From a virus: DNA of 26,576 bases. Location of the stretch: positions 1 to 26,576 of the IMG/VR virus record IMGVR_UViG_3300043543_000067. The stretch is one strand, 5' to 3'. Shown one piece after another: positions 2,162-22,300 of the stretch (position 1 is its first letter; the number at the start of each line of letters is the position of its first letter). Both the position numbers and the translations under genes were made by a program. The notes below the pieces were generated by a model, which saw only the letters and a program-made list of their open reading frames with translations, was not told the origin of the DNA and did no database searches.

Positions 2162-2167
2162 GGCTCT

Positions 2168-6033: not shown

Positions 6034-6489
6034 ATGGGCGTGTTAGCGCGCTATACGCGCTCCGAGATCGAGCGTCTGGAAGCTACGGACCCTCGCTGGT
6101 GGTCCGAATTGTGTGCTCGTGTTGCCGAGCATGGTTCTCGTGCTTTGCAGGATGAGCGTCGTGAGCGTGGGTGGTCTTGGGGCGCGTTGTGGGCGTGGTT
6201 GACGGAGAATGAGGAGCGTTATCGGGAGTACAGGCGCGCGCTAGAGGGTTATGCGCAGATGCGGATGTTGGAGACTGTTCCGATTGCGGATGAGAGTGGT
6301 GATGCGCGGTTGCGTGTCGAGACGCGGTTCAAGTTTGCGGAGCGTGCTGATCCTGCGCGCTGGTCGGTGAAGGGTGGTGGCGAGGGTGGAGCGGTGAAGG
6401 TGGTGCTGGTGAATTTCCGGTTGCAGGATGGGCGGGTGGTGGAAGCTGATCAGGTGGCTGATCAGGTGGCCGATCAGGTGGCTGAGTAG
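6034..6489 (+). CDS. Terminase small subunit
   Basis: This encodes a 151-residue protein recognised by the phage small-terminase pattern. The N-terminal half is a DNA-binding helical domain (SWGALWAWLTENEERYREYRRALEGYAQM), then LETVPIADES, and the oligomerisation or large-subunit-contact region RLRVETRFKFAERADPARWSVKG. The small subunit recognises the packaging site and feeds DNA to the large terminase. The gene stands directly before the large terminase, with one small gene between. The C-terminus is an unusual tandem ADQV repeat made by 12-bp direct repeats. Codon use favours T- and G-ending codons and the coding strand is strongly G-over-C, unlike the later genes. No ribosome binding site is evident before ATG 6034. 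Confidence 0.8.
   Translation: MGVLARYTRSEIERLEATDPRWWSELCARVAEHGSRALQDERRERGWSWGALWAWLTENEERYREYRRALEGYAQMRMLETVPIADESGDARLRVETRFKFAERADPARWSVKGGGEGGAVKVVLVNFRLQDGRVVEADQVADQVADQVAE
6445..6480 (+). repeat. Three 12-bp direct repeats at the 3' end of the small terminase gene
   Basis: GCTGATCAGGTG occurs at 6445-6456 and 6457-6468 and, with one change, at 6469-6480. Each unit carries the palindrome TGATCA, so GATC (Dam) sites recur every 12 bases. The repeats encode the ADQV tail of the protein. In P22 and SPP1 the packaging (pac) signal is in or beside the small terminase gene, so these are a candidate recognition array. Simple coding-repeat expansion is the alternative. Confidence 0.7.
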
Positions 6490-6500
6490 GGTGTGCGTGT

Positions 6501-6686
6501 ATGCCGTTCGTGAGCGAGCGACAGCGCCGGTGGATGTGGGCTAACATTCCGGAGGTGGCTAGGCGCTGGACACAGAAGTACGGTGCGAAGCCGGTGAAGC
6601 CTGTGAAGCCTGCGAAGCCGGTGAGGCCTGCTGAGGAGCGTATTGCGATTGCTCTTTTGCGGGCGCGCGCAAGAAATGTGCCGTGA
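6501..6686 (+). CDS. Small basic phage protein of the packaging region
   Basis: This encodes 61 residues. The start MPFVSERQRRWMWANIPEVARRW is of a type often seen in small phage proteins beside terminase or portal genes, where a QRRWM-type helix is conserved. The middle is a PVKPVKPAKPV repeat and the end is basic (LLRARARNVP). It lies 11 bases after the small terminase gene and its stop overlaps the GTG start of the large terminase gene (GTGA), so translation is probably coupled. The function of this family is not established. Confidence 0.65.
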   Translation: MPFVSERQRRWMWANIPEVARRWTQKYGAKPVKPVKPAKPVRPAEERIAIALLRARARNVP

Positions 6687-8098
6687 CTGTTCTGCGTCTT
6701 CCGAAGTCCTGGCGACCGAGGCCGTATCAGCTTCCGCTCTGGGAGTATCTTCGAGCGGGTGGGAAGCGCGCCGTGGTTTGCTGGCACCGCAGGGCGGGCA
6801 AGGACGATGTGTGTCTGCACGCGACCGCCTGCGCGGCGATGGAAAGGGTAGGTAACTACTGGCACATGCTGCCCGAGTATGCGCAGGCGCGGAAGGCGAT
6901 TTGGGATGCTGTGAACCCGCACACTGGCGTGCGGCGGATTGACGAGGCGTTCCCGCGCGAGATCAGGGCCTACACTCGCGAGCACGAGATGACCATCGGG
7001 CTCGTCAACGGCTCTACATGGCAGGTGGTCGGATCGGACAACTACAACAGCCTGATGGGCACGACTCCTGCGGGCATGGTGTTTTCCGAGTACGCGCTGA
7101 GCAACCCGTCGTCGTGGGGGTATCTCTCGCCGATCCTGGAGGAGAACGACGGATGGGCGGTGTTTATCTCTACCCCGCGTGGAAGGAATCACTTTCACGC
7201 CATCTGCCAGACTGCGCAGCGCGAGCAGGGCTGGTTTTACAGCATGCTCACGAACGACGACACCGGCGTGTTTAGCAAGGAACAGCTCGAATCGAAGCTG
7301 CGTGAGCTGCAAGACCTGCACCCGCCTCAGTACGCGCTCTCGCTATGGCGGCAGGAGTATTTCTGTTCGTTCGATGCGGCGATACCCGGGTCGATCTGGG
7401 CGGATTGCATCGAGCGGGCGGAAGCCGATGGCCGCATTCTCGATCTTCAGGTTACCAAGGCTCCGGTCTATACGGCGTGGGACTTGGGCCGCACGGACGA
7501 TACGGCTGTCTGGTTCTACCAGTTCAACGGCCAGTACATTGATATCTTCGATTTTTTCTCGTCGAGCGGCATGAGCATCGAGGGTCTGGTAGACATGCTC
7601 ATGGACAGGAAGGTGAGGCACGGTATCACCTATGCTCGACACTGGCTTCCGCACGACGCTCGCCCGAGAACGCTAGCGGCTGGCGGGAAGTCCATCCTTC
7701 AGCAGTTCATGGACGCAGGCAAGCGGATCGCAGGGCTCGGAGACTTTGCCATCGTGCGCCGGCTTGACGTGCAAGAGGGCATTCAGGCCGCGAGGGCTAC
7801 GTTCCAGCACGTCAGGTTTCACGTGGAACGCTGCAAGCAAGGCATCGAGGCGCTTCGGCACTACCACCGAGAATGGGACGACAGCCGCAAGGCGTTCCTC
7901 GACCGCCCGGTACACGACTGGTCTTCGCACGCTGCTGATGCGTTCCGTTACCTGTCGCTATCGTGGAAGAGGCCAAAGAGCAACCAGGCTCAGCCAGTGG
8001 ATCGGAAGGAGCCAGAGCGACCAGGTGGCGTAACAATGGGCCAGCTTTGGCGAGAACATTTACGCAGGCGTAAATTAGCGTCGCTCGGGATGATGTAG
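6683..8098 (+). CDS. Terminase large subunit
   Basis: This encodes 471 residues, the ATP-driven DNA packaging motor and genome-cutting nuclease that docks on the portal. The N-terminal ATPase has a variant Walker A HRRAGKD at 35-41, Walker B GMVFSEYAL with catalytic Glu near 136, and a coupling motif FISTPRG at about 161-167. The C-terminal RNase H-like nuclease shows WDLGRTDDTA (Asp near 267), a central HDAR, and HAADAFRYL near residue 425, the three metal-binding sites of this fold. The HRRAGKD Walker A is characteristic of many podovirus terminases. The GTG start overlaps the previous stop. The portal gene begins 3 bases after its stop. Length and motif order are normal, so it should be functional. 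Confidence 0.93.
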   Translation: MTVLRLPKSWRPRPYQLPLWEYLRAGGKRAVVCWHRRAGKDDVCLHATACAAMERVGNYWHMLPEYAQARKAIWDAVNPHTGVRRIDEAFPREIRAYTREHEMTIGLVNGSTWQVVGSDNYNSLMGTTPAGMVFSEYALSNPSSWGYLSPILEENDGWAVFISTPRGRNHFHAICQTAQREQGWFYSMLTNDDTGVFSKEQLESKLRELQDLHPPQYALSLWRQEYFCSFDAAIPGSIWADCIERAEADGRILDLQVTKAPVYTAWDLGRTDDTAVWFYQFNGQYIDIFDFFSSSGMSIEGLVDMLMDRKVRHGITYARHWLPHDARPRTLAAGGKSILQQFMDAGKRIAGLGDFAIVRRLDVQEGIQAARATFQHVRFHVERCKQGIEALRHYHREWDDSRKAFLDRPVHDWSSHAADAFRYLSLSWKRPKSNQAQPVDRKEPERPGGVTMGQLWREHLRRRKLASLGMM

Positions 8099-8101
8099 AC
8101 G

Positions 8102-10408
8102 ATGCACGAGGAACGCTCACCGCAGTGGTGGCTCGCCGAAATCGAAGCCGCTCGTAAGCGCGAGGAGACCTGGCGCAAGGACGCTGAGCGCATCATCCGC
8201 ATCTATGAATCCCGCGACGACGGCAAGGTGCCGTTCAACATCCTGTTCTCGAACACCGAGACGATGCTGCCTGCGCTCTACTCGGCAGTACCGCGCCCAG
8301 TCGTGCGCCGCAGGTTCAAGGACGACGATCCACTCGGACGCGCAGCCGCCACCGCCGCCCAGCGCATGCTCGAGTTCCTGCTCGACATGAACATAGAAGG
8401 GTACGAGACATTCGATACAGCGATCAAAACTTCGACGCTGCACGCGCTACTCGTCGGGCGCGGCGTCGCGACCGTGAAATACGACTCGGAGGAGGAAACT
8501 CTACCAGGCGAAGAGCCAGTTCCATACAAGAAGTCCGAACTAGTCTGCATCGAAAACAGGATCTGGAACCGCGTGTACTTCGGCTTCGCGCACAAGTGGA
8601 CCAAGGTGCCGTGGATCGCCTACGAGGAATACATCGACAAGGACGAGGCGACGAGGCTCTTCGGCAAGGAGATCGCTGAGGAGCTCAACTACGCTAGCTG
8701 CGAGTCTGAGGACTCTGACGACAAGACGCTCAAGCCATATGGCGACGTGATCGGCCGCTCTGAGCGCAAGCTCGCACTCGTCTACCAAATCTGGGACAAG
8801 GAAGGCGGGCGGCGCGTGCTCTACGTGAGCCCATCGCTGCCGGACCGCTTCCTCCTCACGATGGACGACCCGCTCCAGCTCACAGGGTTTTTCAACTGCC
8901 CGCAGCCGATGGAGTTCATCGAGCGCGCAAGCGGTGGATGCCCAGTGCCGCTCTACTCGCTCTACGAGCAGCAGGCAGTCGAGATCAACGAGATCACGCG
9001 GCGCATCCGCAACGTTGTGCGCGCAATCAAGGCGCGCGGTATCTACGACACCGAACTTGGCGAGGATATCAAGCGCCTGTTCGAGGCTGACGACAACGAA
9101 CTTGTCCCCGCAGAGAAAAGCTCCGCGTTTTCCGCCGAGCGCGGGCTCCAGAACGCCATCTGGTTCGCGCCGCTACAGGAACTCATCACGACGCTGGAGA
9201 AGCTCTACGCAGCGCGTGAACAGTGCAAACGTGTGATCTACGAGGTCACGGGCATCTCGGACATCCTGCGCGGCATGTCGGTTGCATCGGAGACCGCCAC
9301 CGCGCAGCGCATCAAGAGCGAGTGGGGCTCACTCAGGTTCCGGCGCAAGCAGCAAGAAGTCCAGCGCTTCGCCCGCGACATGCTGCGGCTCATGGTCGAG
9401 GTCGCGGCCACGCGATTCAGCGAGGAAACCTGGGCGCGCATGACCGGGCTTCCATACCTCACAGAGCAGGACTTCGCGCACGAGAAGATGCTCGTCGAGC
9501 AGCTCACCGCACTGCTGGCCTCAGGTCAGGCAAGCCCACAGGTGCAGCAACAGTTAGAACAGGCGCGCCGTAACCTCACGACCCCGCGCTGGTCACAGGT
9601 GCTGGAAATCCTGCGAAACGACCTCCAGCGCGCCTATCGCGTGGACATCGAGACGAACTCGACCGTAGAGCCCGAAGCCGTCGAGGATCAGCGGCACATC
9701 AGCGAGGTCATGACGGCACTCGGACAGTTCCTGAACGGCGTGACTCCTCTTGTGACCTCCGGCACGATGCCTTTTCAGGCTGCCCAGGCAATGATGCTCG
9801 CCATCACACGACGCTTCCGCTTCGGCGAGGAGATCGAGGACTACATCAAGTCCATGCAGCCGCCTCAGCCGCCGGACATTGGCAAGGAAACGATGGCCGA
9901 GATCGAGCGCGAGAAGACGAAGCTTGCACTCGAACAGGCGCAGCTCGAAGCGGAGAAGCGCGAACTTGCCGCGCAACGCGAGATTGCGAAGAAGGACATC
10001 GAGATCGCGCGGCTACGCGCCGAGCTTTCTGCTGTGGACATGAAGGTCAAGGAGACTGTCGCGAACATCGAGCTTCAGGCGCGCGAGCGGATGGTGCGCG
10101 AATCCGAGGCCGTCGTCGCGGCCAAGGCGCAACAGGTCGCGAAGGGCGAGCAACGGAACGATGCCGCGGCAGCAAAGGCCATCGCAGCCATACATCGCTT
10201 GGTCACCACGTTCTCGGAGACGATGGCCAAGCTCGTGGCCAGACTGGAGCAGAGCGATGCGAATCTCTCCGACAAGATGGCGCAGATTCTGGCGATCAGT
10301 TCCGCCCCGCGCCGCTCTCGGGCCATTCGCGGCAAGGACGGGCGCATCGAAGAGACTGTGAGCGAACCAGTGCTAGCCCAGACTACTCCAACCACCAGCC
10401 TGCCGTGA
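8102..10408 (+). CDS. Portal protein
   Basis: This encodes 768 residues, the dodecameric channel at the capsid vertex through which DNA enters and leaves. The large size and the order of segments (NILFSNTETMLPALYSAVPRP, then a region with IENRIWNRVYFGFAHKWTKVPWIAYEEYI, then YEQQAVEINEITRRIRNVVRAI and YEVTGISDILRGM) fit P22/Bcep22-like podovirus portals. Residues about 590-690 are a long charged coiled coil (EREKTKLALEQAQLEAEKREL and on), resembling the barrel helices that project into the capsid. It follows the large terminase immediately and precedes the scaffold and capsid genes, the standard head-gene order. No truncation is apparent. Confidence 0.9.
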   Translation: MHEERSPQWWLAEIEAARKREETWRKDAERIIRIYESRDDGKVPFNILFSNTETMLPALYSAVPRPVVRRRFKDDDPLGRAAATAAQRMLEFLLDMNIEGYETFDTAIKTSTLHALLVGRGVATVKYDSEEETLPGEEPVPYKKSELVCIENRIWNRVYFGFAHKWTKVPWIAYEEYIDKDEATRLFGKEIAEELNYASCESEDSDDKTLKPYGDVIGRSERKLALVYQIWDKEGGRRVLYVSPSLPDRFLLTMDDPLQLTGFFNCPQPMEFIERASGGCPVPLYSLYEQQAVEINEITRRIRNVVRAIKARGIYDTELGEDIKRLFEADDNELVPAEKSSAFSAERGLQNAIWFAPLQELITTLEKLYAAREQCKRVIYEVTGISDILRGMSVASETATAQRIKSEWGSLRFRRKQQEVQRFARDMLRLMVEVAATRFSEETWARMTGLPYLTEQDFAHEKMLVEQLTALLASGQASPQVQQQLEQARRNLTTPRWSQVLEILRNDLQRAYRVDIETNSTVEPEAVEDQRHISEVMTALGQFLNGVTPLVTSGTMPFQAAQAMMLAITRRFRFGEEIEDYIKSMQPPQPPDIGKETMAEIEREKTKLALEQAQLEAEKRELAAQREIAKKDIEIARLRAELSAVDMKVKETVANIELQARERMVRESEAVVAAKAQQVAKGEQRNDAAAAKAIAAIHRLVTTFSETMAKLVARLEQSDANLSDKMAQILAISSAPRRSRAIRGKDGRIEETVSEPVLAQTTPTTSLP

Positions 10409-10415
10409 GGTGAAC

Positions 10416-10502
10416 ATGGCGATCTATTCCACTTCACTTCTTCTTACTCGCATCGGACGGAAATGCCGCTTCACGACTTCCGCTGCCAGCAGGGACACTT
10501 AA
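10416..10502 (+). CDS. Possible 28-residue leader peptide overlapping the zinc-ribbon gene
   Basis: An ATG at 10416 follows AGGTGAAC closely and opens a 28-codon frame (MAIYSTSLLLTRIGRK at its start) that ends at TAA 10500-10502, 40 bases inside the next gene in another frame. The ribosome binding site is as good as that of the following gene. It may be a real small protein, a coupling leader, or chance. Confidence 0.3.
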   Translation: MAIYSTSLLLTRIGRKCRFTTSAASRDT

Positions 10503-10873
10503 CCGAGGCGTATGTGCCGCACGGCACGGACGCGATCTCGTGTCAGCGCTGCGGCAAGCGCGCGGAGAAGGTGTTCCTGACCTTCCCCATGATCTTCGTC
10601 CAGCCGGACATCTGCTACGAAAGCCCAATCGACGGAAGGCCGATCACATCACTGCATGCACGCAAGGAAGACCTTGCCCGCTCTGGTTGCATCCCCTACG
10701 ACCCGGAGATGAAAAAAGACGCAGAGCGCAAGCAGAAAGAAGCAGAGGCGCGCCTCGAAGCTGCGCTGGACGAGACCATAGAACGCGAGATCACGGCGAT
10801 GCCATTGCGCAAGCGCGAGCGGCTCGCCTCAGAGTTGGACGCTGGTTTTGACGTGACGTTCATGAGGAAATAA
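10463..10873 (+). CDS. FmdB-like zinc-ribbon protein of the head module
   Basis: This encodes 136 residues. The N-terminus MPLHDFRCQQGHLTEAYV with ISCQRCGKRAEKVFL gives the FmdB-type zinc ribbon pattern, C-x2-G-H and C-x2-C separated by about 20 residues. The rest contains FVQPDICYESPIDGRPITSLHARKEDLARSG, also seen in phage copies of this family, then a charged helix rich in Lys and Glu. It lies between portal and scaffold genes with GGACGGA before the ATG. Zinc binding is a family-level expectation; its part in head assembly is unknown. The portal-scaffold position and the 2-base gap to the scaffold gene argue for co-expression with head genes. Confidence 0.75.
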   Translation: MPLHDFRCQQGHLTEAYVPHGTDAISCQRCGKRAEKVFLTFPMIFVQPDICYESPIDGRPITSLHARKEDLARSGCIPYDPEMKKDAERKQKEAEARLEAALDETIEREITAMPLRKRERLASELDAGFDVTFMRK

Positions 10874-10875
10874 CG

Positions 10876-11841
10876 ATGCCTGAAGGTGAATTCGACATGG
10901 ACAGCGCAGTAGCATCCGTAGCGTCCGGACTCGGAATCGGTGCGTCTGATGGAGCACAGGAATCGGTCGAGCCGCAGTCCGAGGTTACGGAGCCACAGAC
11001 CGACGAGGCCCCTGCGGCAGAAAGCGCGGAGCAGCAGCCCGATGCCGTGCAGGTGCGACCAGCTCCGAAATCGTGGGCAAAGGAATATCACGAGCACTGG
11101 GCTAAGCTCGATGCGAAGGTGCAGGACTACATCGAGAAGCGCGAGAAGCAGATGCTCGACGGGCTGGAGCAGTACAAGAGCGACGCCGCCTTCGCGCGCG
11201 AGATTCGCGAGGTGATCACTCCATATCTCCAGCATATCCAGGCGCAGGGCGTCGAGCCGAAGCAGGCAATCCAGTACCTGCTGCACGCCCATCACCTACT
11301 CACGACTTCGCCTGCCGAGCAGAAGCTCGACTACTTCCGCAAGCTCGCAGCGTCCTACGGCATCCAACTCGACCAGCTCTCTGCCGAAGCGCCGAAAGAG
11401 GATACGGCTCTCAAGCCGATCACCGAGAAGCTTTTCGCTCTCGAACAGGCGCTTCGTGCCCGTGAGCAAGCGGAATACCAGGAGCGGTACAACAATATTC
11501 TCGCCGAGGTGCAGGCGTTCGCATCAGACGGCAAGCATCCGTATTTCGACGAGTGCTACGAAGACATCGAGGCGCTCGTCCGTGCAGGACATACGCTCGA
11601 ACAGGCGTATGAGAAGGCGGTGTACGCCAACCCGGTCACTCGCGCCAAGGAACTCGCCCGCCTTCAAGCGGAGTGGGAAAAAGAGATGCGCGAGAAGGCC
11701 AAAGCAGAAGCCGAGAAGGCCAGACAGGCCAAGGCGGCAAACATCCGAAGCAGGGAAACGACCGCAACTCCGACAGAGCCTTTGGGGTCGATGGAACAGA
11801 CTATACGCGAAACTCTTAAGAAATTAAGAGGAGCGTCCTAA
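10876..11841 (+). CDS. Capsid scaffolding protein
   Basis: This encodes 321 residues. Residues 1-60 are acidic and rich in Ala, Gln, Glu and Pro. Then comes a typical phage scaffold segment, PKSWAKEYHEHWAKLDAKVQDYIEKR, a helical core (FAREIREVITPYLQHIQAQGVEPKQAIQYLL), and a C-terminal coiled coil from about 240 to 290 with many Lys, Glu and Ala. Scaffold proteins direct capsid assembly and are removed before DNA fills the head; their basic C-terminus often contacts the capsid protein, and here the end is LKKLRGAS. The gene directly precedes the major capsid gene. GAGGAAAT is the ribosome binding site. No protease motif is apparent. Confidence 0.82.
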   Translation: MPEGEFDMDSAVASVASGLGIGASDGAQESVEPQSEVTEPQTDEAPAAESAEQQPDAVQVRPAPKSWAKEYHEHWAKLDAKVQDYIEKREKQMLDGLEQYKSDAAFAREIREVITPYLQHIQAQGVEPKQAIQYLLHAHHLLTTSPAEQKLDYFRKLAASYGIQLDQLSAEAPKEDTALKPITEKLFALEQALRAREQAEYQERYNNILAEVQAFASDGKHPYFDECYEDIEALVRAGHTLEQAYEKAVYANPVTRAKELARLQAEWEKEMREKAKAEAEKARQAKAANIRSRETTATPTEPLGSMEQTIRETLKKLRGAS

Positions 11842-11859
11842 ACTCTAGAGGAGATCAAA

Positions 11860-12822
11860 ATGCCTTCCCCTAACAGCGTGTTCACGGAACTGGTCACGAC
11901 CACGTTCCGCAAACACAGGAAGGAGATCGTTGACAACCTGTCGAACCGCAACGCTCTCCTGAAGTACCTGATGAAGCGCGGTAACTACCGCACCGAGGAC
12001 GGCGGTCTGAGTATCGCCATACCTTTCGACTACGCCGCGAACAGCACCTACCAGCGCTACAGCGACTGGGACACGCTGAACATCGGGCAATCGGAGGTGC
12101 TCTCGGCTGCCGAGTACCAATGGCGGCAGATCGCCATCCATGTGGTGGCTTCCGGTCGCGAGCTGCGCATCAACAGCGGAGAAACGAGGATCATCAACCT
12201 CGTGAAAGCCCGCATGAAGAATGCCATTCGGACGTTCAACAACAACTTCTCGTTCGACCTCTACTCGAACGGCACGTTGACGAACCAGATCAATGGCATT
12301 CAGGCGCTCATCGCTGACACGCCGACGAACACGGTTGGCGGAATTGACGCCGGCACTTGGACGTTCTGGCAGAACAAGGTGTACAGTGCGTCGGACAACG
12401 GCGTTACGCCGTCTGCGACGACAATCGAGAACAGTCTGCTTCTGCCGGCGTGGATGATGGTGGACCGTGGCCCAGACGACCAGCCCGATCTGATCGTGAT
12501 GTCGAACGACTGGTATCAGTTCTTCGAACAGTCGCAGACCTCGATCAAGCGCTACACCAGCCAGCAGAACGTGGCAGGAGGACTCATCAGCCTGAAATAC
12601 AAGACGGCTGACGTGTTCTTCGACGGCAACTCTGGCATCCCGCCTTCGCGCGCCTATCTCATCAACACGGAGTACCTGTACCTCGTGGTGCATGAGCAAG
12701 CGAACCTCGAAGTGCTCGATGCTCAGAAGCCTGTGAATCAGGACGGCGAGATCGTGCCGATCATCTTCATGGGCAACCTCTGCTGCTCGAACCGTTCGAT
12801 GCAGTGCGTCATCAAACCCTAA
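11860..12822 (+). CDS. Major capsid protein
   Basis: This encodes 320 residues of a phage major capsid family, expected to take the HK97-like fold. Features include the helical N-terminus (VFTELVTTTFRKHRKEIVDNLSNRNALLKYL), a beta-rich DGGLSIAIPFDYAANSTYQRYSDWDTL region resembling the extended loop, and NNFSFDLYSNG, LIVMSNDWYQFFE and LISLKYKTADVFFDG in the core. A strong GAGGAG site lies before the ATG, as expected for the most abundant virion protein. It follows the scaffold and precedes a probable decoration protein. No N-terminal cleavage peptide can be assigned. The fold is inferred from family likeness. Confidence 0.88.
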   Translation: MPSPNSVFTELVTTTFRKHRKEIVDNLSNRNALLKYLMKRGNYRTEDGGLSIAIPFDYAANSTYQRYSDWDTLNIGQSEVLSAAEYQWRQIAIHVVASGRELRINSGETRIINLVKARMKNAIRTFNNNFSFDLYSNGTLTNQINGIQALIADTPTNTVGGIDAGTWTFWQNKVYSASDNGVTPSATTIENSLLLPAWMMVDRGPDDQPDLIVMSNDWYQFFEQSQTSIKRYTSQQNVAGGLISLKYKTADVFFDGNSGIPPSRAYLINTEYLYLVVHEQANLEVLDAQKPVNQDGEIVPIIFMGNLCCSNRSMQCVIKP

Positions 12823-12837
12823 CTGAGCGAGGCGAAC

Positions 12838-13548
12838 ATGTTCTCTGCTATCGATTCGGTTGGCGGAACCCAGCCATTCAACGACTGGTTTACGCCCGAC
12901 ACGACTCAGCGCCACGTCCTCGGGATGAAGGTGTCTGCCGTAGACCCATATTGGGGGTACGGCGAGTTCATCTATCTCAAGGCTGGCTCGTCCCTGAACA
13001 AGGGCAACGTGTGTGTCATCAATGCGTCGTTTACCGCGACCACGGCTCCGGCGACTGCCAACACCGGATACCCGGTCTGCGTTGCGATGGCGCCGATGTC
13101 CGCCAACACCTTCGGCTGGTTCCAGACGATGGGTCTGGCGGTCTATGCCATGAACGCGACGGTGACGGCGGACGCGGCTGTCGGCGTCGCGGCTGCCGGT
13201 GTGCTTGGGACCAACGTTGCCGGCAGGCAAGTGCTTGGTCTCAGGCATCTGAGACCGCAAACGGCTACGATCACCGTGCAGGCGACGCTTACCGCCGGAA
13301 GCCCTGTCGTGCTCACTGGTGGGTACGACGGGTTCTTCGTCGGGATGGCGTTGTCCGGCACAGGTGTGCCCGCCTCGACTGTCGTCGGGCGTCTCGACGC
13401 GGACGGCAGGACGATTTACATGGGCAGCGCCGTCGGTCTCTCTGACAAGCTCGCGACCTCTAGCGGGCAGATCACGCTTACCGGAACCTACACCGGTTTC
13501 GGTGCCGGGATCATCCATAGCCCGTTCATGCAGGGCGCGATCACTTGA
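12838..13548 (+). CDS. Probable capsid decoration or head accessory protein
   Basis: This encodes 236 residues, low in charge and rich in Gly, Ala, Thr and Val. Residues about 45-130 (YLKAGSSLNKGNVCVI, YPVCVAMAPMSANTFGWFQTMG) resemble small beta-barrel head-decoration proteins in which a YG-x-F, GTxxxxGxV and GWxQ pattern recurs. Residues about 150-236 add a second beta-rich part (ATLTAGSPVVLTG, GMALSGTGVPASTVV) typical of surface-exposed phage beta domains. The gene follows the major capsid gene by 15 bases and is the last before a strong terminator, so it is expressed with the head genes. The decoration role is inferred from position and composition. Confidence 0.6.
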   Translation: MFSAIDSVGGTQPFNDWFTPDTTQRHVLGMKVSAVDPYWGYGEFIYLKAGSSLNKGNVCVINASFTATTAPATANTGYPVCVAMAPMSANTFGWFQTMGLAVYAMNATVTADAAVGVAAAGVLGTNVAGRQVLGLRHLRPQTATITVQATLTAGSPVVLTGGYDGFFVGMALSGTGVPASTVVGRLDADGRTIYMGSAVGLSDKLATSSGQITLTGTYTGFGAGIIHSPFMQGAIT

Positions 13549-13555
13549 CCTTGTG

Positions 13556-13593
13556 CCCGCCCTCCATCTGCAGATGGGGGGCGGGACTTTTTT
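13556..13593 (+). terminator. Intrinsic terminator after the head genes
   Basis: CCCGCCCTCCATCTG (13556-13570) pairs with CAGATGGGGGGCGGG (13571-13585) with a single mismatch; in RNA the centre would open as a small loop. A run of six T follows at 13588-13593. This is a textbook GC-rich hairpin plus U-run. It would end or reduce transcription from the head module and lower the level of the distal tail genes. Confidence 0.85.
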
Positions 13594-13618
13594 GACTGGG
13601 AGACTGACTGGGAGACGT

Positions 13619-14296
13619 ATGAACGAAGAGATTCAGATAACGATGTCGAGAGAGGAGCGTCCGCCGTTCGTCAAGTTCGAGCGGTGCCCGGTCGAGGACG
13701 TTGCCGCGTCCAAACGCGAGGGACGCTACATCGCGCGCGATGTGGATTTCGCGTGCGTGACGCAGCCCTACTCGCGCGACGTGTTCCGCTGCGAAGTCGA
13801 CGAATGGTTCAAGTCTCTAGATCGCGAACTTGCAGCGGGTCGCATGCGACCTGACTGGGTCGAGATGTTCAAGCGCAAGTACGAGGCGTGGAAGAAAGGG
13901 CAGGAGATGCCCATCGAGGGCACGCCGATTCGCGGCTGGGGCGTCATCTCTCCGGCCCAGCAGGAGATGCTGATTCACGTCGGCATCATGACGGTCGAAG
14001 ACCTCGCTGCGGTCAACGACGAGGGTATGCGCAGGATCGGTATCGGTGCCGTAGAGCTGAAGACGAAGGCCAAGGCTTGGATCGCACAGCTTCGTGACAA
14101 GGGGCCGCTTACGATGCATATCACGGCCCTAGAAAAGGAAAACGCGCGTCTCAAGGAGACGGTGTCTGCGTTGGAGACCGAGGTTGCCAAGCTGCGAGCC
14201 TCGTTCGCCCAGATCGCCGGGCAGGCCGTGGCGCAGCAGCAGATCCAGCGCGAGGAGAAGAAGGAAGTCGAGATCGAACTGAAGGAAATCATCTAG
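13619..14296 (+). CDS. Conserved podovirus structural-module protein with C-terminal coiled coil
   Basis: This encodes 225 residues starting MNEEIQITMSREERPPFVKFE. The start at 13619 is chosen because GGGAGA precedes it and because upstream codons of the open frame run through the terminator hairpin. Residues about 100-145 (GWGVISPAQQEMLIHVGIMTVEDLAAVNDEGMRRIGIGA) resemble a helix-hairpin-helix-like pair. Residues about 165-225 are a coiled coil (LEKENARLKETVSALETEVAKL) with a charged end. Proteins like this occur in podoviruses between capsid and adaptor genes; their function is not known. The position suggests head completion or assembly. A duplicated GACTGGGAGA sits just before the start codon. 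Confidence 0.68.
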   Translation: MNEEIQITMSREERPPFVKFERCPVEDVAASKREGRYIARDVDFACVTQPYSRDVFRCEVDEWFKSLDRELAAGRMRPDWVEMFKRKYEAWKKGQEMPIEGTPIRGWGVISPAQQEMLIHVGIMTVEDLAAVNDEGMRRIGIGAVELKTKAKAWIAQLRDKGPLTMHITALEKENARLKETVSALETEVAKLRASFAQIAGQAVAQQQIQREEKKEVEIELKEII

Positions 14297-14305
14297 GGTA
14301 CGCAC

Positions 14306-15019
14306 ATGAATCTTCTCCAGATCGTGCAAGCGTTCTGCGACCGGACGAACCTGCCGAGTCCGGCGACCGTCATCGGGTCGGCCGATCATCTCGTCCGGCA
14401 GATACGCGCGATTCTGGAGGAGATCGGCACAGACATGGCCGACCGTGGCGCGTGGCAAGCGCTCACGTTCGAGGCGTCGTTCACCACCGTAGCGGCAGAG
14501 TCGCAGGGGCAGATCAGTTCGATCGCGTCGAACGGCTTCAGCTACATCAAGAACGAGACGATATGGGATAGGGCTTCGCGCATCCCGATCTGCGGGCCGC
14601 TCGATGCGCGCGAGTGGCAGGAGGCTAAGGCTCACCAGCCATCAGGACCTGCGTACCACTACCGGATTCGAGCCGGTGATCTTCTCATTATCCCTGCCCC
14701 ATCTGCCGGGCTTACTTGGTACTTCGAGTACGTCTCGCGCAATTGGATCACGGACTCCACGGGCACCATAGGGCGGTCCAAGTTCGAGGCGGATACCGAC
14801 CTCGTGCGCCTTCCGGTCCATGTGCTCCTGATGGGCCTGCGGTGGGCGTGGAAGAAGGAAAACGGGCTCGAATACGCCGAAGATTTGCGCACCTACGAGG
14901 CGCAGCTCGCCGATGCCATCGGGCGCGAGGGCGGGAGGCGAAGGATCAAGATGGACGCTCCCATCTACCCGGGCCCGCGCCCTGGCATCTTCATCCCTGC
15001 CGGTAACTGGGACCTGTAG
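14306..15019 (+). CDS. Head-to-tail adaptor (gp4-like) protein
   Basis: This encodes 237 residues. The N-terminal helical part (MNLLQIVQAFCDRTNLP, LVRQIRAILEEIGTDMADRGAWQALTFEA) followed by a beta-rich middle (YHYRIRAGDLLIIPAPSAGLTWYFEYVSRNW) and a C-terminal helical segment (LPVHVLLMGLRWAWKKENGLEYAEDLRTYEAQL) is the arrangement seen in podovirus adaptor or tail accessory proteins related to P22 gp4. These form a ring under the portal and link it to the nozzle. It abuts the next gene directly, TAG followed at once by ATG. The C-terminal tail is Pro- and Gly-rich (YPGPRPGIFIPAGNW). Confidence 0.7.
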   Translation: MNLLQIVQAFCDRTNLPSPATVIGSADHLVRQIRAILEEIGTDMADRGAWQALTFEASFTTVAAESQGQISSIASNGFSYIKNETIWDRASRIPICGPLDAREWQEAKAHQPSGPAYHYRIRAGDLLIIPAPSAGLTWYFEYVSRNWITDSTGTIGRSKFEADTDLVRLPVHVLLMGLRWAWKKENGLEYAEDLRTYEAQLADAIGREGGRRRIKMDAPIYPGPRPGIFIPAGNWDL

Positions 15020-16582
15020 ATGCGCGTCGCGCTCAAGATCAAGGCTCCACAGCGCCAGCAGGTGGCAAGGTTCGTCTCGTATCCTGCCCCTGTCGGCGGG
15101 TGGAACGCGCGCGATCCCCTTGCGAACATGCGGCCCGAGTACGCGGTTAAGCTGGAGAACTGGTTTCCGCAGCCCTCGTATTGCGAGCTTCGCGGCGGGT
15201 ACAAGTCGCACGCAACTGGCATGACTGGAGTCGGCAAGACGCTCATGACTTACAACGCGCAGAACGGCGCACAGTCCATGTTCTGCACGACTTCGAGCGG
15301 GACGTTCAACGTAACGTTCGTAGGCGCTGTCGGGTCTTCCGTGCTGGCCCGCACGAACGGCAAGCATCAGTGGACCATGTTCGCAGACGGCACGAACAAC
15401 TGGCTCATCGCGTGCAATGGCGTGGACAAGCCAGCGTACTACGACGGCACGACGTGGATCGCTGTGGACAACACCACGACGCCATCGCTGAGCGGCGTAC
15501 CATCCACAGAACTCGTGCAGCCGCTCTCGTTCAAGGGCAGGCTCATGTTCGTGCGGGTGAACTCAGCGTCGTTCTGGTATCTGCCTGCGGGCGCTGCCGG
15601 CGGAACGCTCTCAGAGTTCAACCTCGGTGGCGAGTTCACGCGCGGCGGCTTCCTGCAGGCCATCGGAAGCTGGACGCTCGACGCTGGAGATGGCATGGAC
15701 GACCTTTTCGTCGCCGTGTCCTCCGAGGGCGAGGCGGTGGTCTACAAGGGCACGAATCCGGCGAACGCGGCCTCGTGGGCGAAGGTGGGCAAGTTCTTCG
15801 TAGGGCGTCCGCTGGGACGGCGCTGCCTGATTCAGTACGGCGGCGATCTCGTCATCATCACGCAGAACGGCGTGTTTCCGTTCTCGGCTGCCATTCAGAC
15901 CGCGAGCGTGGACTACAAGATGGCGCTGTCGTTCCTGATCGAGTCGGCCTTCACGGAAGCCGCCCGGGAATACGGCAATGCGTTCGGATGGCGCGCCATC
16001 ACGTTCCCGCCGCAGAACGCGCTCATCGTGAACGTACCCATCGCCGAAGAAGGCGTGCATCACCAGTACGTCATGAACACCATCACCAAGGCATGGTGCA
16101 AGTTCACAGGCTGGGATGCCGAGGATTTCGGCGTGATGGGATCGCGGCTCTTCTTCACGCGAGGGGATGCGGTTTACGAGGCATGGACAGGGCGTTCTGA
16201 CAACAACGCGAACATCGTGGCGTTCGGCAAGCAGGCGTTCAACTATTTCGGCTCAATGACACAGCGCAAGAAATTCAAGCTCTATAGGCCGGTTCTGACT
16301 GCCGATGACGATCTTGAGTACCTCACTGGCCTCGACGTGGACTTCGAGGACGAAGGACTCGTCAGCGTGCCATCCAGCTCTTCCAGCACGGCGGCGAAAT
16401 GGGACAGCGCGATCTGGGATCAGTCATTGTGGGCTGGCGGCTTCAAGGTCATCAAGCAGTGGACTTCGCCTACGTCGCGCGTCGGATACTGCGCCGCAGC
16501 AAAGGTTAAGGTTGCTAGCAAGGCGGTAGGCGTTCGGTGGCTGGCGAATGAGATAAGCATGGAGTTCGGAGGGCCGATTTGA
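15020..16582 (+). CDS. Tail nozzle or hub protein (P22 gp10-like)
   Basis: This encodes 520 residues, largely beta-strand. It begins with YPAPVGGWNARDPLANMRPEYAVKLENWFPQPSYCELRGGY, a hallmark opening of podovirus nozzle proteins related to P22 gp10. Repeated blade-like segments follow, such as NNWLIACNGVDKPAYYDGTTWIAV, GRLMFVRVNSASFWYLP, DDLFVAVSSEGEAVVYKG and GDLVIITQNGVFPFS, which fit a beta-propeller. The C-terminal part contains a flexible Ser tract (VPSSSSSTAAKWDSA). The nozzle closes the tail channel and carries fibres or spikes. It starts directly after the adaptor stop and its TGA overlaps the TTG start of the next gene. Confidence 0.75.
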   Translation: MRVALKIKAPQRQQVARFVSYPAPVGGWNARDPLANMRPEYAVKLENWFPQPSYCELRGGYKSHATGMTGVGKTLMTYNAQNGAQSMFCTTSSGTFNVTFVGAVGSSVLARTNGKHQWTMFADGTNNWLIACNGVDKPAYYDGTTWIAVDNTTTPSLSGVPSTELVQPLSFKGRLMFVRVNSASFWYLPAGAAGGTLSEFNLGGEFTRGGFLQAIGSWTLDAGDGMDDLFVAVSSEGEAVVYKGTNPANAASWAKVGKFFVGRPLGRRCLIQYGGDLVIITQNGVFPFSAAIQTASVDYKMALSFLIESAFTEAAREYGNAFGWRAITFPPQNALIVNVPIAEEGVHHQYVMNTITKAWCKFTGWDAEDFGVMGSRLFFTRGDAVYEAWTGRSDNNANIVAFGKQAFNYFGSMTQRKKFKLYRPVLTADDDLEYLTGLDVDFEDEGLVSVPSSSSSTAAKWDSAIWDQSLWAGGFKVIKQWTSPTSRVGYCAAAKVKVASKAVGVRWLANEISMEFGGPI

Positions 16583-17070
16583 ACGGACTCGTAGTAGGCC
16601 AAGAAGTGGTACGGTGGGTCGGCTTCATGGTCGGCCACATGTTCAATCCTGACCTTTCTGTTGGCATCGGCTGGCAAAGGGATGGCGAGATCGTTTGCGG
16701 TGCGGCCTTCACCGACTACAACGGCATCAATATCAATATGCACATCGCAAAGCTGGATGGCGAGACCTTTCCGCCAACCTTCATTGCCGCGATCTTCGAC
16801 TACCCGTTCAACCAGGTCGGCGTGCGTCGCATGACCGGTCTCATCCCAGAGAGCAACGCCGCGTCCATCGCCTTCGCCGAGCGCGTCGGAGGCGTCAGGG
16901 AAGGCGTGTTGCGGGATGGTGCTCGGGATGGTAATCTCGTCATCTATGGGCTTCTAAGGAGCGAAGCGGACAGGTGGCTGACAGCCTCCTTTGCCCGCAG
17001 GCTGAAGAGGCAAGGGGGTTCTGATGGGCGGAATCTTCAAGGACAGCCCGTCGCCGCCGCCACCGCCTGA
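16579..17070 (+). CDS. GNAT-family N-acetyltransferase
   Basis: This encodes 163 residues. The start is TTG 16579, overlapping the previous TGA, with GGAGGG just upstream. The fold is recognised by the C-terminal acetyltransferase signature VRRMTGLIPESNAASIAFAERVGGVREGVLRDGARDGNLVIYGL, the RimL-like pattern of Asn-x-Ala-Ser followed by an acetyl-CoA-contacting helix, then the EG..R turn and a final strand. The middle contains VCGAAFTDYNGININMHIA. It transfers an acetyl group from acetyl-CoA to an amine on an unknown target. It lies inside the tail-gene block and overlaps the next gene by 47 bases. Modification of a virion protein or of a host target are both possible. Confidence 0.75.
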   Translation: MNGLVVGQEVVRWVGFMVGHMFNPDLSVGIGWQRDGEIVCGAAFTDYNGININMHIAKLDGETFPPTFIAAIFDYPFNQVGVRRMTGLIPESNAASIAFAERVGGVREGVLRDGARDGNLVIYGLLRSEADRWLTASFARRLKRQGGSDGRNLQGQPVAAATA

Positions 17071-17887
17071 CTACGTTGGCGCGGCTAAGGCTCAGGGGGC
17101 TGCGAACCGAGAGACTGCGATAGCGCAGTCGTTGCTTAACAACCCGAACGTCATCGGACCGTTCGGGACACAGCGATGGGTGGGCGGCGAAGAGGGAGAC
17201 CGCCCTACACTCTATCAGGAGCTTTCCCCAGATCAGCAGGCAGTTCTGGATCGCCAGCTCGCAGTCAAGCGCGACTTGGCAGACCTTGCGCTGCTCGGCT
17301 CTTCAGCAGCGCGCGGCGTTCTCGGATCACCTCTAGACCTATCAGGCCTGCCTCCACGGCCAGGTAGCTTCGAGGAGCTGCGGAACAGAGCCTACGAGGC
17401 CCAGATGGCGCGCATCCAGGAGGATGCCCAGCGCGCCAAGGACCAGGCGCACGCGGACCTGATCGCGGCCGGTATCAGACCCGGTACCAGAGCCTACGAG
17501 GACCGCATGCACGCCATCCAGCGCGGTGTAAACGATGCCGCCAACCAGGCCTACCTTGCTGCGTCGCAGCATGCTCAACAGGCGTTCGCTACTGAGTCCG
17601 AGCGTCGTAGGCAGGCGCTGGCGGAGCTTCTGACAGGCCGTCAGACGCCGATCAACGAGATCGCCGCGCTCATGAGCGGGTCGCAGGTGGTGAACCCGTT
17701 CGCGATGCCTGGTATAGTGCCCAGCCAGATCGCGCCGCCTCCTATTTTTGCTGGGCACCAAGCGCAGCATCAGGCCGCGATGGATGCGTACAACGTTGCT
17801 GCGCAGCGGGAAGCAGGGTTGATGAGCGGACTGTTTAACTTGGGCGCTGCAGCTCTTGGGTCGCCGTGGTTACCGAAATTGTTCTAA
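17024..17887 (+). CDS. Virion/ejection-type protein, stopped at the S74 cleavage position
   Basis: This encodes 287 residues up to an in-frame TAA. It starts MGGIFKDSPSPPPPPDYVGAAKAQG, a form common in podovirus internal or tail proteins, with AAGGGGG before the ATG. The middle is a long helix (RNRAYEAQMARIQEDAQRAKDQAHADLIAAGIRPGTRAYEDRM), then a helical ERRRQALAELLTG segment and a hydrophobic end (LFNLGAAALGSPWLPKLF). Immediately after the stop, the same frame continues for 62 codons as a clear peptidase S74 chaperone domain. Related proteins are expected to carry that domain as one polypeptide. The TAA stands where the domain's first Ser should be. It overlaps the GNAT gene at its start. 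Confidence 0.8.
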   Translation: MGGIFKDSPSPPPPPDYVGAAKAQGAANRETAIAQSLLNNPNVIGPFGTQRWVGGEEGDRPTLYQELSPDQQAVLDRQLAVKRDLADLALLGSSAARGVLGSPLDLSGLPPRPGSFEELRNRAYEAQMARIQEDAQRAKDQAHADLIAAGIRPGTRAYEDRMHAIQRGVNDAANQAYLAASQHAQQAFATESERRRQALAELLTGRQTPINEIAALMSGSQVVNPFAMPGIVPSQIAPPPIFAGHQAQHQAAMDAYNVAAQREAGLMSGLFNLGAAALGSPWLPKLF

Positions 17888-18076
17888 GACCGCCGCCTGA
17901 AGTCGAACATCAACCGTGTCGGCACGCACCGTCTCGGAATCGGTATCTACGTCTACGACATCTTCGGTCGCCGCGAGATCGGCGTGATGGCCGACGAAGT
18001 GCTCGCAGTAATGCCTGATGCAGTGTCTGTCGGACCGTTCGGGTATCTGATGGTGGACTATGCCAAGATCGGCTGA
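17885..18076 (+). pseudogene. Peptidase S74 (intramolecular chaperone) domain separated by an in-frame TAA
   Basis: In the same frame as 17024-17887, directly after TAA (17885-17887), the DNA reads DRRLKSNINRVGTHRLGIG, then YVYDIFGRREIGVMADEVL, then MPDAVSVGPFGYLMVDYAKIG and TGA. This is the standard S74 core, normally opening SDxRLKxNI. In endosialidase-type S74 domains that Ser is the cleavage-site residue and acts with the Lys five residues later; here the Lys is present and the Ser codon is TAA, one base from TCA. The domain has no other stop or frameshift, and its end overlaps the next gene's start by 17 bases, as expected if the gene originally ended here. No internal start with a good ribosome binding site was found. 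Confidence 0.85.
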
Positions 18077-19478
18077 CCCATACTCGCTCGCGATGACCGG
18101 CCTTCCGCCGGAGGCGTACCAGCAGCTTCTGGAGGCCCAGCGCCGCCGCGAACTTGCCAACGCACTCCTCGCTCAGAGCATGACACCGATTCAGGCGCGC
18201 CATGCAGGAAGGATGATCGCGCCGCCGCACTGGCTCGAGGGTGTGGCGCGGATGGCGCAGGCGTATGTTGGCAGGAAGTCGCTGGAGGAAGCCGACGAGC
18301 GTGCAGCGCAGCTCGCTCGAACGATTGCAATGCAGCGCCAGGAGGCGCTCGACAGGCTGCAGCGCGATCTCATGGACGCTCTGCAGCAGCGCCAGCCGCC
18401 AGGCGCGCCAGCAGCACCGACTGTTCCGGCAGCTCCTCGTGCCCAAGCCCCGGACCAAGCTCTGGCTCAAGACCCTGCCAAAGCCCAGGCTCAAGCCCCG
18501 GCTCAAGCCCCGGTTCAAGCCCCGGTTCAAGCCCCTGTTCAACAGAACATCGAGCCTTCGGTAGAGCCGCATATGCCTGCTGCTCCACAGCCGGCAGCGC
18601 AGCAGCAGCTCACGCCTGCGCAGCGCCTGATCGCGCTCTCTCTGGCTGCGTCGTCCAACCCGCTGACGCAGCATACGGCTCCACTTCTCGGAAGCCTGGT
18701 CAAGCACGCGCTCGATCCGCATCGGGTCGGAGCAAACCAGATGCTCGTCGAACCGCTGACTGGCGCTGTGATCGCTGGCCCACAGAAACAGGAGACGCCG
18801 CAGCGCAAGATCGTTCGTGGGACACTTTTGGAGGTCTCGCCGCAGGGCGATGTGCGACAGCTCTACACTGCCCCAGAGCCCACTCCGAAGCCGCCTGCCG
18901 AGAAGGTGGTTACGGTCGCTCCTGGCCGAACTGTGGTGCGCGTAAAACCGGGCGAGGAGCCTGAAGTGATTTACCAGACGCCGCAGCCTGCGGGCGGACC
19001 AGAGAAGGTTGATCCGCAGGAGAAGTTACGTCGCGATACAGCGCACAAACTTTACAAGCAGTATAGCGACAATCCTATCGTCAAGGACTATATAAAGAGC
19101 ACGCCGCAAGTCATGCAGATGGCGCAGTACATCGCACAGCGCCACAAGATGACGGAGAACGAGAAGGCCACCAACGACCGCGCTCTGGCGAACCTCTTCC
19201 TATCGCTCACGAGGGTGTGGGAAAGCCGCGCGACGAACATGTACCTGAAGCAGGAAGCTGGCCTCGAAGGCATACCGGAGAGACTGCTGATCGCCGCCAG
19301 GAACGCCATCCGCGGCTACCAGCTGAACGACGACATGGCATCCGCGATGTGGGACTTCGTCCAGAAGCGCTACAGCATCCTAGGGCAACATGAGCATCGC
19401 GTCCGTGATGAAGTGCTGTCGCGCGCGAAGGCCATGGACGTGCCGCCCGAGATGATCTTCAAGAAGCCCGCTCCGTAA
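18060..19478 (+). CDS. Ejection/internal virion protein with Pro-Ala-Gln repeat linker
   Basis: This encodes 472 residues. Residues 1-105 are helical and basic (YQQLLEAQRRRELANALLAQSM, RMAQAYVGRKSLEEADERAAQLARTIAMQ). Residues about 115-185 are a low-complexity linker rich in Pro, Ala and Gln built from 12-bp repeats. Residues about 190-300 hold a mixed region (LTPAQRLIALSLAASSNPLTQHTAPLLGSLVKHAL), and the C-terminal third is helical (AHKLYKQYSDNPIVKDYIKSTPQVMQMAQYIAQRH). It lies between the S74-linked protein and a giant helical protein, the usual place of podovirus DNA-ejection proteins. No catalytic motif is recognised. The start ATG overlaps the ancestral end of the previous gene. Confidence 0.6.
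   Translation: MPRSADPYSLAMTGLPPEAYQQLLEAQRRRELANALLAQSMTPIQARHAGRMIAPPHWLEGVARMAQAYVGRKSLEEADERAAQLARTIAMQRQEALDRLQRDLMDALQQRQPPGAPAAPTVPAAPRAQAPDQALAQDPAKAQAQAPAQAPVQAPVQAPVQQNIEPSVEPHMPAAPQPAAQQQLTPAQRLIALSLAASSNPLTQHTAPLLGSLVKHALDPHRVGANQMLVEPLTGAVIAGPQKQETPQRKIVRGTLLEVSPQGDVRQLYTAPEPTPKPPAEKVVTVAPGRTVVRVKPGEEPEVIYQTPQPAGGPEKVDPQEKLRRDTAHKLYKQYSDNPIVKDYIKSTPQVMQMAQYIAQRHKMTENEKATNDRALANLFLSLTRVWESRATNMYLKQEAGLEGIPERLLIAARNAIRGYQLNDDMASAMWDFVQKRYSILGQHEHRVRDEVLSRAKAMDVPPEMIFKKPAP
18491..18538 (+). repeat. 12-bp tandem repeats encoding a QAP linker
   Basis: Four consecutive units of the type TCAAGCCCCGGT or TCAAGCCCCGGC begin at 18491, 18503, 18515 and 18527, with weaker units on either side. 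They encode QAPV and QAPA steps of a flexible linker. The frame is preserved by any unit gain or loss, so linker length may vary between isolates. Confidence 0.7.
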
Positions 19479-19480
19479 GC

Positions 19481-22300
19481 ATGCTGACCGAAGAGCAACG
19501 ACGCCTGATCGCGGAAGCGAACCGCGCAGCCGCTTTGATGGCTGGCAAGCCTCCGCCAGAGGACGACGACGAGCCGATACGACCGCTTCCGTTCTCCGAC
19601 AAGGAGATAGAGCGCATCATAAAGCAGGCGAACGAGGCTGCGGCCAAAATGCGCGGCAAGGTCAGGTACGATCCGACGCAGCCAACGCTTCCGTACTTCG
19701 CCCAGCAGCTCAAGCTAGTTCCCGCCGGACTGTTTGGACTTCCGGTGGACACACTCGCGAACATCCGCGACCTCGCCAAGGCGGCCGTTGGGACTGCGTA
19801 TGGAGAGGCCACGGGCAAGACTCCGCCGGAGTGGCTGCACGTTAAGGAACCGCAGCAGATCGCAGGAGTCGGAGAGTCGCTCTGGCACGGCAGACCCGGT
19901 GGCGCTGGGACGTTCGCGAGCTTTTTCGGCTACCAGCCCACGAAGCCGCCCGGGCCGATCAGCGAGGCAATCAGCAACGTAACCAACGCCATCGCGGCCA
20001 TCTTGCTCACGAAGCGGCTCTCGCCAGGCATGACGCTTCCGCAAGCTGGTGTGATCGGAACAGGCGCTGGGCTTGGACAAACGGCTGCCGAGCACGCCTT
20101 CCCGGATTCTCCTGTTGCTGGTGCAATAGGATCGGCCATCGGCGGATTCGTGCCATCCTTTTCTCCGACTGTTCGCATGCTCAGGACTGGAGCCGAAGCT
20201 GTCAGGTCAGCCTTCGGCGAGAAATCGCGCGCGAAGATTTTCGAATCCGCCAAGCCTGTGATCGAAGATGTCGTGAAGCGCGATGTGGCACGGCAGATCG
20301 CCGAATACGGCCCAGCGACCTCGAATATCGAACGCATGGCTGCACTGATGGCAGAGTTTCCAGGTGTACAGCCGAACATCGGTCAGATGACGCTGGTGCC
20401 AACGCTGGTCGCGCAATCCAAGAAGATGGCCCTCAACCCTGACCTCGCGAACGTGGTGCAGCAGATCAACACCGCCAACCGCGCCGCCTTGGCGAAAGCG
20501 ATCCTGCGTCAGCAGGATGCGCCGGCAATGGGCAATGTCGTTTCTGGCATGGTCGATGACATCGCGCGACAAAGCGCTGCTCTTGCAGACGAAGCAGCAA
20601 GGCTTCGAGAGGCTGGCCAAACGCTTCGTGCTTCTGTACCGACCGAGAAGCACACTGTCCTGGGGCAAGCAATGCGCGAATATAGGCAGCAACAGCTTGC
20701 TCAAGCTCAGCAGGTTGTCCGTACCCTGCTGGATCGCGTTGATGAGGCCGCTGCTGGCAAGACTTTCGATGCTACGAAGGTGGTGGAGACGGCCAAACAG
20801 GCAATGCAGAACCCGGCTCTCCGCTACGAACCTGGCTGGATGCCGGCAGTGGTGCGGCGCATCATGGGGCTCGTGAAAGAAAGCGACGATGCTCCGCAGG
20901 TGGACATTAAGAACCTGCCGTTCCGCGAGCTTCGCGCAATGAGGGAGGCTGTCAACGAGGACATCAGGCAGGTAGCCACCTCCGGCACGACGACGGCACG
21001 AGCCCAGCTTCGCGAGCTGATGGGTATCAGGAACGCGATTGACGACGCCATCATGTCCGGTGATCCTGCCGTGCGCAGCGCCTACGGCGAGTTTGTCAGG
21101 TACTACCGAGACGAATTTGCGCCGAAGTTCCTGCGCGGTCTGAATATCAAGCAGACCACGCGCGACGTGACCGGTGAGCTGCGGATTTCGCATGAGAACC
21201 TGCCGAAGCAGTACTTCAGCGCTACGCAGCCAGGCGCGGCACGGCAGTACCTATCGCTCTACGGCGGTAGCGCTGAAGGCAAGGACATGATGCAGCGCAC
21301 CATCATGGACCGCTACGCGCGCGAGGTTTTGACGAAGCCCAATCTCGAGGCTGCGCACCAGAACTTCGTCAACCGCTACCGCGAGCCGCTGCGCATCCTG
21401 CACGAAGGCGGGATCAACACTGCCGATGACATCGCCGCCCTCGGCAACGCCATCAAGAAGATCGGCGCAGAAGCCGCTGCCATGAAGGCGAAGCAGCAGG
21501 AGCTGCAGAAGAACTCGTTTGCGTCTCTCGTGCGGGACAAGTTCGGCACTCGAACCGCAGATCAGGTGATGGCTGATGTCATCAAGGACCCGCGCAAGGC
21601 CGACATGCTGGTAGCGAGGATGGACCAGAGGTCTGCGCAGGGGATGCTCAACTGGTTCGCGGACGATCTAGCGAGCGCAATCACTGGAGCAAAGGAAGGC
21701 CGCATCGGCGAGGTCGTGAGCGCGCGGCTGGAGAACAAAAACTACATCTACGCCTACCGTGCAGCCCTAGAGAAGGCATACGGCAAGCAGGTTGCAGACC
21801 AGCACATTGCGAAGCTGGGTATGCTCGACGATATCGCACGCAGGCTCGATGTGACCGAGGTCGACCCGTTCGTCAGCCTAAAGGGCAAGCATCAGATTGC
21901 GGACATCTCGGCGAAGACTGGCTTCACGGTGGCAAGCGTCTGGAGCCTGATCCGCGCTGTTGTCACCGGCAGGACGAGCGAATACCACGCAGCTCTCGTG
22001 CTCGGAGGGCAGTACGCGACGAAGCAGCTCGAAATCATACGTAACGACATCCTTCGCAAGCTGGTGACAGACCCGAAGGAGCTGGATGCGGTGCTGACGC
22101 TCGCGCGCGCCCAGGCTCCGGTAGGAGAAGCCGTTGCCAACGCGGCGAAGTCGTTGATGCCGACCGTCTTGGATGCCTTGCGGAAAGCTGGCGCGTTTGT
22201 AGGCAAGGCGGCTACCGTGCCGCTGCGGAAGACGGCTCCAACTACGATTGCACCGCTCGCGGAAGAACGTATCGGAGACGAAGATGCCATTCAACGGTAG
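19481..22300 (+). CDS. Large internal virion / DNA-ejection-type protein
   Basis: This encodes 939 residues, the largest protein of the window. It is mostly alpha-helical with many Ala, Gln and Arg residues, for example AALADEAARLREAGQTLRAS and a long helix around residues 400-430. Residues about 165-235 are Gly/Ala-rich and hydrophobic (ISNVTNAIAAILLTK, GVIGTGAGLGQ, VAGAIGSAIGGFVPSF), the kind of segment that could enter membranes. Giant helical proteins after the nozzle genes of podoviruses are carried in the capsid and form a channel across the cell envelope at infection. No lysozyme or transglycosylase motif is recognised. The function is therefore inferred from size, composition and position. 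It starts 3 bases after the previous stop. Confidence 0.65.
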   Translation: MLTEEQRRLIAEANRAAALMAGKPPPEDDDEPIRPLPFSDKEIERIIKQANEAAAKMRGKVRYDPTQPTLPYFAQQLKLVPAGLFGLPVDTLANIRDLAKAAVGTAYGEATGKTPPEWLHVKEPQQIAGVGESLWHGRPGGAGTFASFFGYQPTKPPGPISEAISNVTNAIAAILLTKRLSPGMTLPQAGVIGTGAGLGQTAAEHAFPDSPVAGAIGSAIGGFVPSFSPTVRMLRTGAEAVRSAFGEKSRAKIFESAKPVIEDVVKRDVARQIAEYGPATSNIERMAALMAEFPGVQPNIGQMTLVPTLVAQSKKMALNPDLANVVQQINTANRAALAKAILRQQDAPAMGNVVSGMVDDIARQSAALADEAARLREAGQTLRASVPTEKHTVLGQAMREYRQQQLAQAQQVVRTLLDRVDEAAAGKTFDATKVVETAKQAMQNPALRYEPGWMPAVVRRIMGLVKESDDAPQVDIKNLPFRELRAMREAVNEDIRQVATSGTTTARAQLRELMGIRNAIDDAIMSGDPAVRSAYGEFVRYYRDEFAPKFLRGLNIKQTTRDVTGELRISHENLPKQYFSATQPGAARQYLSLYGGSAEGKDMMQRTIMDRYAREVLTKPNLEAAHQNFVNRYREPLRILHEGGINTADDIAALGNAIKKIGAEAAAMKAKQQELQKNSFASLVRDKFGTRTADQVMADVIKDPRKADMLVARMDQRSAQGMLNWFADDLASAITGAKEGRIGEVVSARLENKNYIYAYRAALEKAYGKQVADQHIAKLGMLDDIARRLDVTEVDPFVSLKGKHQIADISAKTGFTVASVWSLIRAVVTGRTSEYHAALVLGGQYATKQLEIIRNDILRKLVTDPKELDAVLTLARAQAPVGEAVANAAKSLMPTVLDALRKAGAFVGKAATVPLRKTAPTTIAPLAEERIGDEDAIQR

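Follow-up and report, generated by a model that had tools for sequence, protein, structure and literature searches.

A TAA stop codon at the S74 hinge of a phage virion protein: a probable recent nonsense change in a family with and without the domain

In a virus record of IMG/VR (IMGVR_UViG_3300043543_000067), analysed here over a stretch of 26,576 nucleotides that we call the window, the gene of a virion protein ends in TAA at the very codon where a peptidase S74 domain would be expected to open with Ser, and the same frame then continues into that domain. This raises the question of how the stop arose and what becomes of the domain encoded behind it. A sequence-only reading of the locus had offered three options, i.e. 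a bypass of autoproteolysis, a low-level readthrough system and a fresh null mutation, of which the last is the best fit: we consider it probable that a nonsense change recently produced the TAA at the hinge and removed a dispensable S74 domain.

The virion gene and the frame behind its stop

The features of the locus are listed below by position in the window.

16579..17070, + strand: gene for a GNAT-type acetyltransferase, upstream of the virion gene and overlapping its start; named phages have this pair of genes too
17024..17884, + strand: body of the virion protein, 287 residues, PHROG 6121 (E=7e-44; the family is matched by 25 of 25 aligned members)
17885..17887, + strand: TAA stop where the domain-opening Ser is expected
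17888..18073, + strand: 62 in-frame S74 domain codons behind the TAA (supported by Pfam S74, PHROG 6121 and conserved columns)
18074..18076, + strand: TGA, presumed ancestral end of the gene; the gene ends of relatives fall within a few residues of it
18060..19478, + strand: downstream gene, which starts inside the S74 frame and overlaps the ancestral end as in the relatives L083 and L105

The open reading frame 17024-17887 comprises 287 codons and the TAA, after which the frame stays open for 62 codons up to the TGA. These 62 residues are matched by Pfam Peptidase_S74 (PF13884; E=3e-6, 27.9 bits, cut-off 22) and score 101 bits with our own S74 profile. PHROG 6121 (virion structural protein, 392 positions) matches the body over profile positions 7-318 and the residues behind the TAA over positions 325-386 (E=9e-15), and since a single profile spans first the body and then the S74 domain, relatives carry both as one protein. 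The arrangement of body and S74 domain across the TAA is not chance. The claims that an intact S74 core follows the stop in frame, and that the downstream gene still overlaps the ancestral end, were both borne out. The catalytic Ser that opens the domain is replaced by TAA, and the catalytic Lys five residues past that position is kept (DRRLK), as it is in 100% of the relatives. Rhizobium phage RHph_I3_18 and Sulfitobacter phage NYA-2014a resemble the window in protein family (PHROG 6121), gene neighbourhood and C-terminal S74 domain, but their gene, as annotated, has no interruption in its frame. A 12-bp tandem repeat (18444-18535) coding for AQAPVQ-like repeats is present in the gene that follows the S74 remnant.

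The 62 codons are well preserved. All 17 columns conserved at >=90% among relatives are kept, and the three private residues are ordinary for the distance of the window from its relatives. A search for signs of relaxed selection found none; changes such as E to V in IYEYD fall outside the strictly conserved columns. In a neutral simulation of decay, with indels ten times rarer than substitutions, divergence since the stop comes out, at the 5% level, as less than about 5-7% per site. The undecayed state suggests that the stop is recent, or is not real, or that the codons are still in use.

The hinge in relatives

In order to learn which residue stands at the stop position elsewhere, the best 80 IMG/VR relatives of the 62 residues (64-74% identical) were compared. 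All 80 S74 loci have Ser (TCT in 47, TCA in 21, AGC in 5, TCC in 4 and AGT in 3), as do all 13 further S74-bearing phage kin reached through the capsid protein. The alignment that the sequence-only reading had called for therefore gives Ser in 93 of 93 S74 relatives compared, confirming that the TAA lies exactly at the domain-opening Ser. All six Ser codons are in use, and the occurrence of both the TCN and the AGY type suggests that it is the residue that is under selection. That the TAA is one change from TCA, as had been stated, turned out to be assumed: in L083 and L105, the nearest two relatives that bear S74, the codon is TCG, and TCA makes up only 6.5% of Ser codons in window genes, against 32% for TCG, so that the TAA may be two steps from a Ser codon.

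The visible IMG/VR records were scanned separately for each of TAA, TGA and TAG ahead of DRRLKxNI. The 13 matches were all chance occurrences in unrelated DNA with no S74 frame, and the arrangement in the window is thus private among these records. The TCT version of the scan gave at least 120 matches; 118 of the 120 listed were S74, and an interrupted upstream frame was seen in none of those listed. A single-protein scan with the body returned no kin, which were instead reached via the S74 and capsid proteins. Capsid relatives in bacterial genome contigs numbered only three and added nothing on the stop.

The phage kin comprise 80 contigs with related capsids (66-75% identity), most of which share the same tail genes. 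Among the 43 scored kin with the same capsid and tail, the body is followed by S74 in 15 and lacks it in 28. The body orthologues whose end could be read are of two kinds. They run in frame into S74 in L083, L105, L110, L116 and others; those that end at the hinge include L098 (GTFKF*), L084 (MTGPR*), L103 (YLGRG*) and L118 (AGRP*), and L138 is also S74-less. Once the aligned sequences are trimmed at the Ser of S74, the points at which S74-less proteins naturally end lie no more than a few residues from the point where S74 joins the body, in each case behind a motif resembling GLFxLGxA. The S74-less orthologues (L098, L103, L118 and L138) thus share the body and the hinge end of the window protein but differ in having no S74 DNA behind their stop. 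The sequence-only reading had counted homologues that end naturally without S74 as a point against itself, which held in part: many do end at the same hinge, but no S74 remnant is detectable behind those ends.

Switching was scored on a tree of a neighbouring tail protein of 520 residues, which covers the 15 S74-bearing and 28 S74-less phages. The presence or absence of S74 changes at least eight times on this tree, and well-supported branches require 5-6 of these changes. The partner of the window on the tree is the S74-less L118. On the tail-protein tree alone, losses are not separable from gains by recombination, and some of the switches could be gains. S74 domains of this type are found on the same body family in 79 of 80 cases, which makes repeated loss the simpler reading, and we infer that S74 may have been lost many times at the same hinge in these related phages.

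The S74 domain of this family departs from the architecture described for others. In phage endosialidases and MYRF, the catalytic dyad consists of the Ser and of the Lys five residues further along, trimerisation is required for cleavage, and a C-terminal coiled coil is the main driver of trimerisation in MYRF (PMC3742443, PMC8326128); the 133-residue chaperone of T5 pb1 likewise has a trimeric coiled coil at its end (PMC4690869). The window domain resembles these S74/ICA domains in its core fold signature, its C-terminal position with the boundary at Ser, and an SDxRLK opening whose Ser and Lys are invariant in its relatives. It differs from them in its length of 62 residues, after which it ends with no coiled-coil helix (PMC4690869, PMC8326128, PMC3742443), in a body that is predicted to be helical as opposed to a triple beta-helix, and in the stop at the Ser codon. 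On the PHROG 6121 body family the domain spans 60-76 residues including Ser and has no C-terminal coiled-coil helix, and on other proteins in the same scan it mostly spans 70-140 residues. The PHROG 6121-borne domains (L002-L081, L175-L294) are uniformly short and may form a sub-class that acts in another way. An AlphaFold2 model of L083 shows a confident small S74 fold that ends in strands, after a mostly helical, low-confidence body; the full-length model has a mean pLDDT of 64.5 and is confident only in the S74 domain and one helical stretch. Comparison of this model with solved structures gave no match for the body, and structure searches added only S74-bearing phage proteins. That Ser and Lys are invariant speaks for a continuing importance of both residues; self-cleavage is a putative property of this family.

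Explanations for the stop

The probable course of events is a nonsense change that would have created the TAA at the hinge between the body and the short C-terminal S74 domain. Translation would then halt there and yield the 287-residue body alone, a form natural to many relatives, and the 62 codons behind the TAA would be leftover S74 DNA in which decay has not yet begun. On this account we infer that the base is real, the truncated protein functional and the S74 codons untranslated. The virion genes (6034-19478) are otherwise open, and are co-linear with those of relatives where matched. Counting against a recent loss are the single allele, the S74-less kin, whose lack of a remnant leaves a hinge stop as a putative route of their losses, and the undecayed domain, which would be equally expected from an error or from continued use.

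An error of consensus or assembly, or a minority variant, would mean that the real population has a Ser codon and an ordinary S74-bearing protein. A single base is involved, the 62 codons show no decay and no sign of age, and the stop is absent from every visible relative, with no second copy. Against this, single changes could create a stop in this frame by more than 100 routes, of which the hinge codon is only one, and an error requires TCA, a rare codon in the window, whereas the nearest S74-bearing kin have TCG. We regard such an error as unlikely, if worth serious attention.

The element could also be a decaying prophage, i.e. defective, with virion genes no longer under selection, in which the TAA would be the first visible virion-gene lesion. 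In its favour, a truncated IS481 transposase fragment (4853-5267) adjoins a Toprim primase gene, but the virion genes are open and co-linear as noted, and a nonsense change at random would be expected to hit precisely the hinge codon only about 2 times in 100; we hold this explanation to be improbable. Located on the - strand between the genes for the primase (3715-4746) and the small terminase (6034), the fragment corresponds to about residues 39-177 of 317 by comparison with ISBcen26. It suggests that an insertion entered the element at some time and was later lost in part, and it keeps this explanation alive. Elsewhere in the window, two adjacent genes of pentapeptide-like or bactofilin-like repeats lie at 188-2307 (- strand), the second with 3.1 near-identical 99-bp tandem copies (1392-1695), and a 939-residue ORF in the virion module (19481-22300, + strand) gave no significant Pfam, PHROG or NCBIfam match.

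A real and maintained stop, by which the body is made directly at mature length, with or without a few readthrough subunits that carry S74, appears rather more doubtful. If true, S74 would help assembly without being required for it, on a virion protein that is helical and possibly of the ejection type, and termination at the cleavage point would take its place.

Readthrough as such, programmed or tolerated, would end most subunits at the hinge and give a few the S74 domain. The 62 codons are intact and conserved, and the A1 extension of Qbeta is a precedent for extending a phage virion protein by readthrough (PMC12469967). The likeness to A1 is that the frame of a virion protein extends beyond its stop; the difference is that the extension is essential there (PMC12469967), while the window has no visible relative that shares the stop and no readthrough signal. 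The features by which programmed readthrough would be recognised are a stop conserved among relatives and a leaky context, RNA structure or suppressor tRNA. Visible relatives have no stop at the hinge position, the RNA around the stop folds less well than shuffled sequences, and no tRNA gene was found in the window, a partial contig on which alone a suppressor tRNA is judged. The TAA is followed by G, which is an efficient termination context. The low-level readthrough proposed earlier is accordingly disfavoured, and we consider it very unlikely. Other translational routes were considered: reassignment of TAA is out, as TAA ends five other window genes and no other gene is interrupted; frameshifting is out because body and S74 share one frame; and a restart inside S74 was judged unlikely, with the first in-frame ATG in mid-domain.

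Least credible is a selected bypass of autoproteolysis, with the stop favoured as a direct maker of the mature length: the stop falls exactly before the residue where cleavage is expected, so that the product has the C-terminus that cleavage before Ser would leave, as had been claimed, and natural S74-less kin end at the same hinge, but self-cleavage of this short S74 domain, which lacks the trimerisation-driving coiled coil, is putative, the predicted body is mostly helical and not a triple beta-helix, and with one allele selection is indistinguishable from tolerated loss.

An optional S74 domain

Taken alone, the window holds a private nonsense allele. Loss of S74 at the hinge is an ordinary mechanism, and its mild interest lies in giving access to a family in which natural pairs have and lack the domain. 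On fibres, S74 is usually regarded as a device dedicated to folding and cleavage; in this family it has come and gone repeatedly at one hinge, and natural pairs with and without it (e.g. L110 and L098) could reveal the role of a short S74 domain on a non-fibre virion protein, including cleavage.
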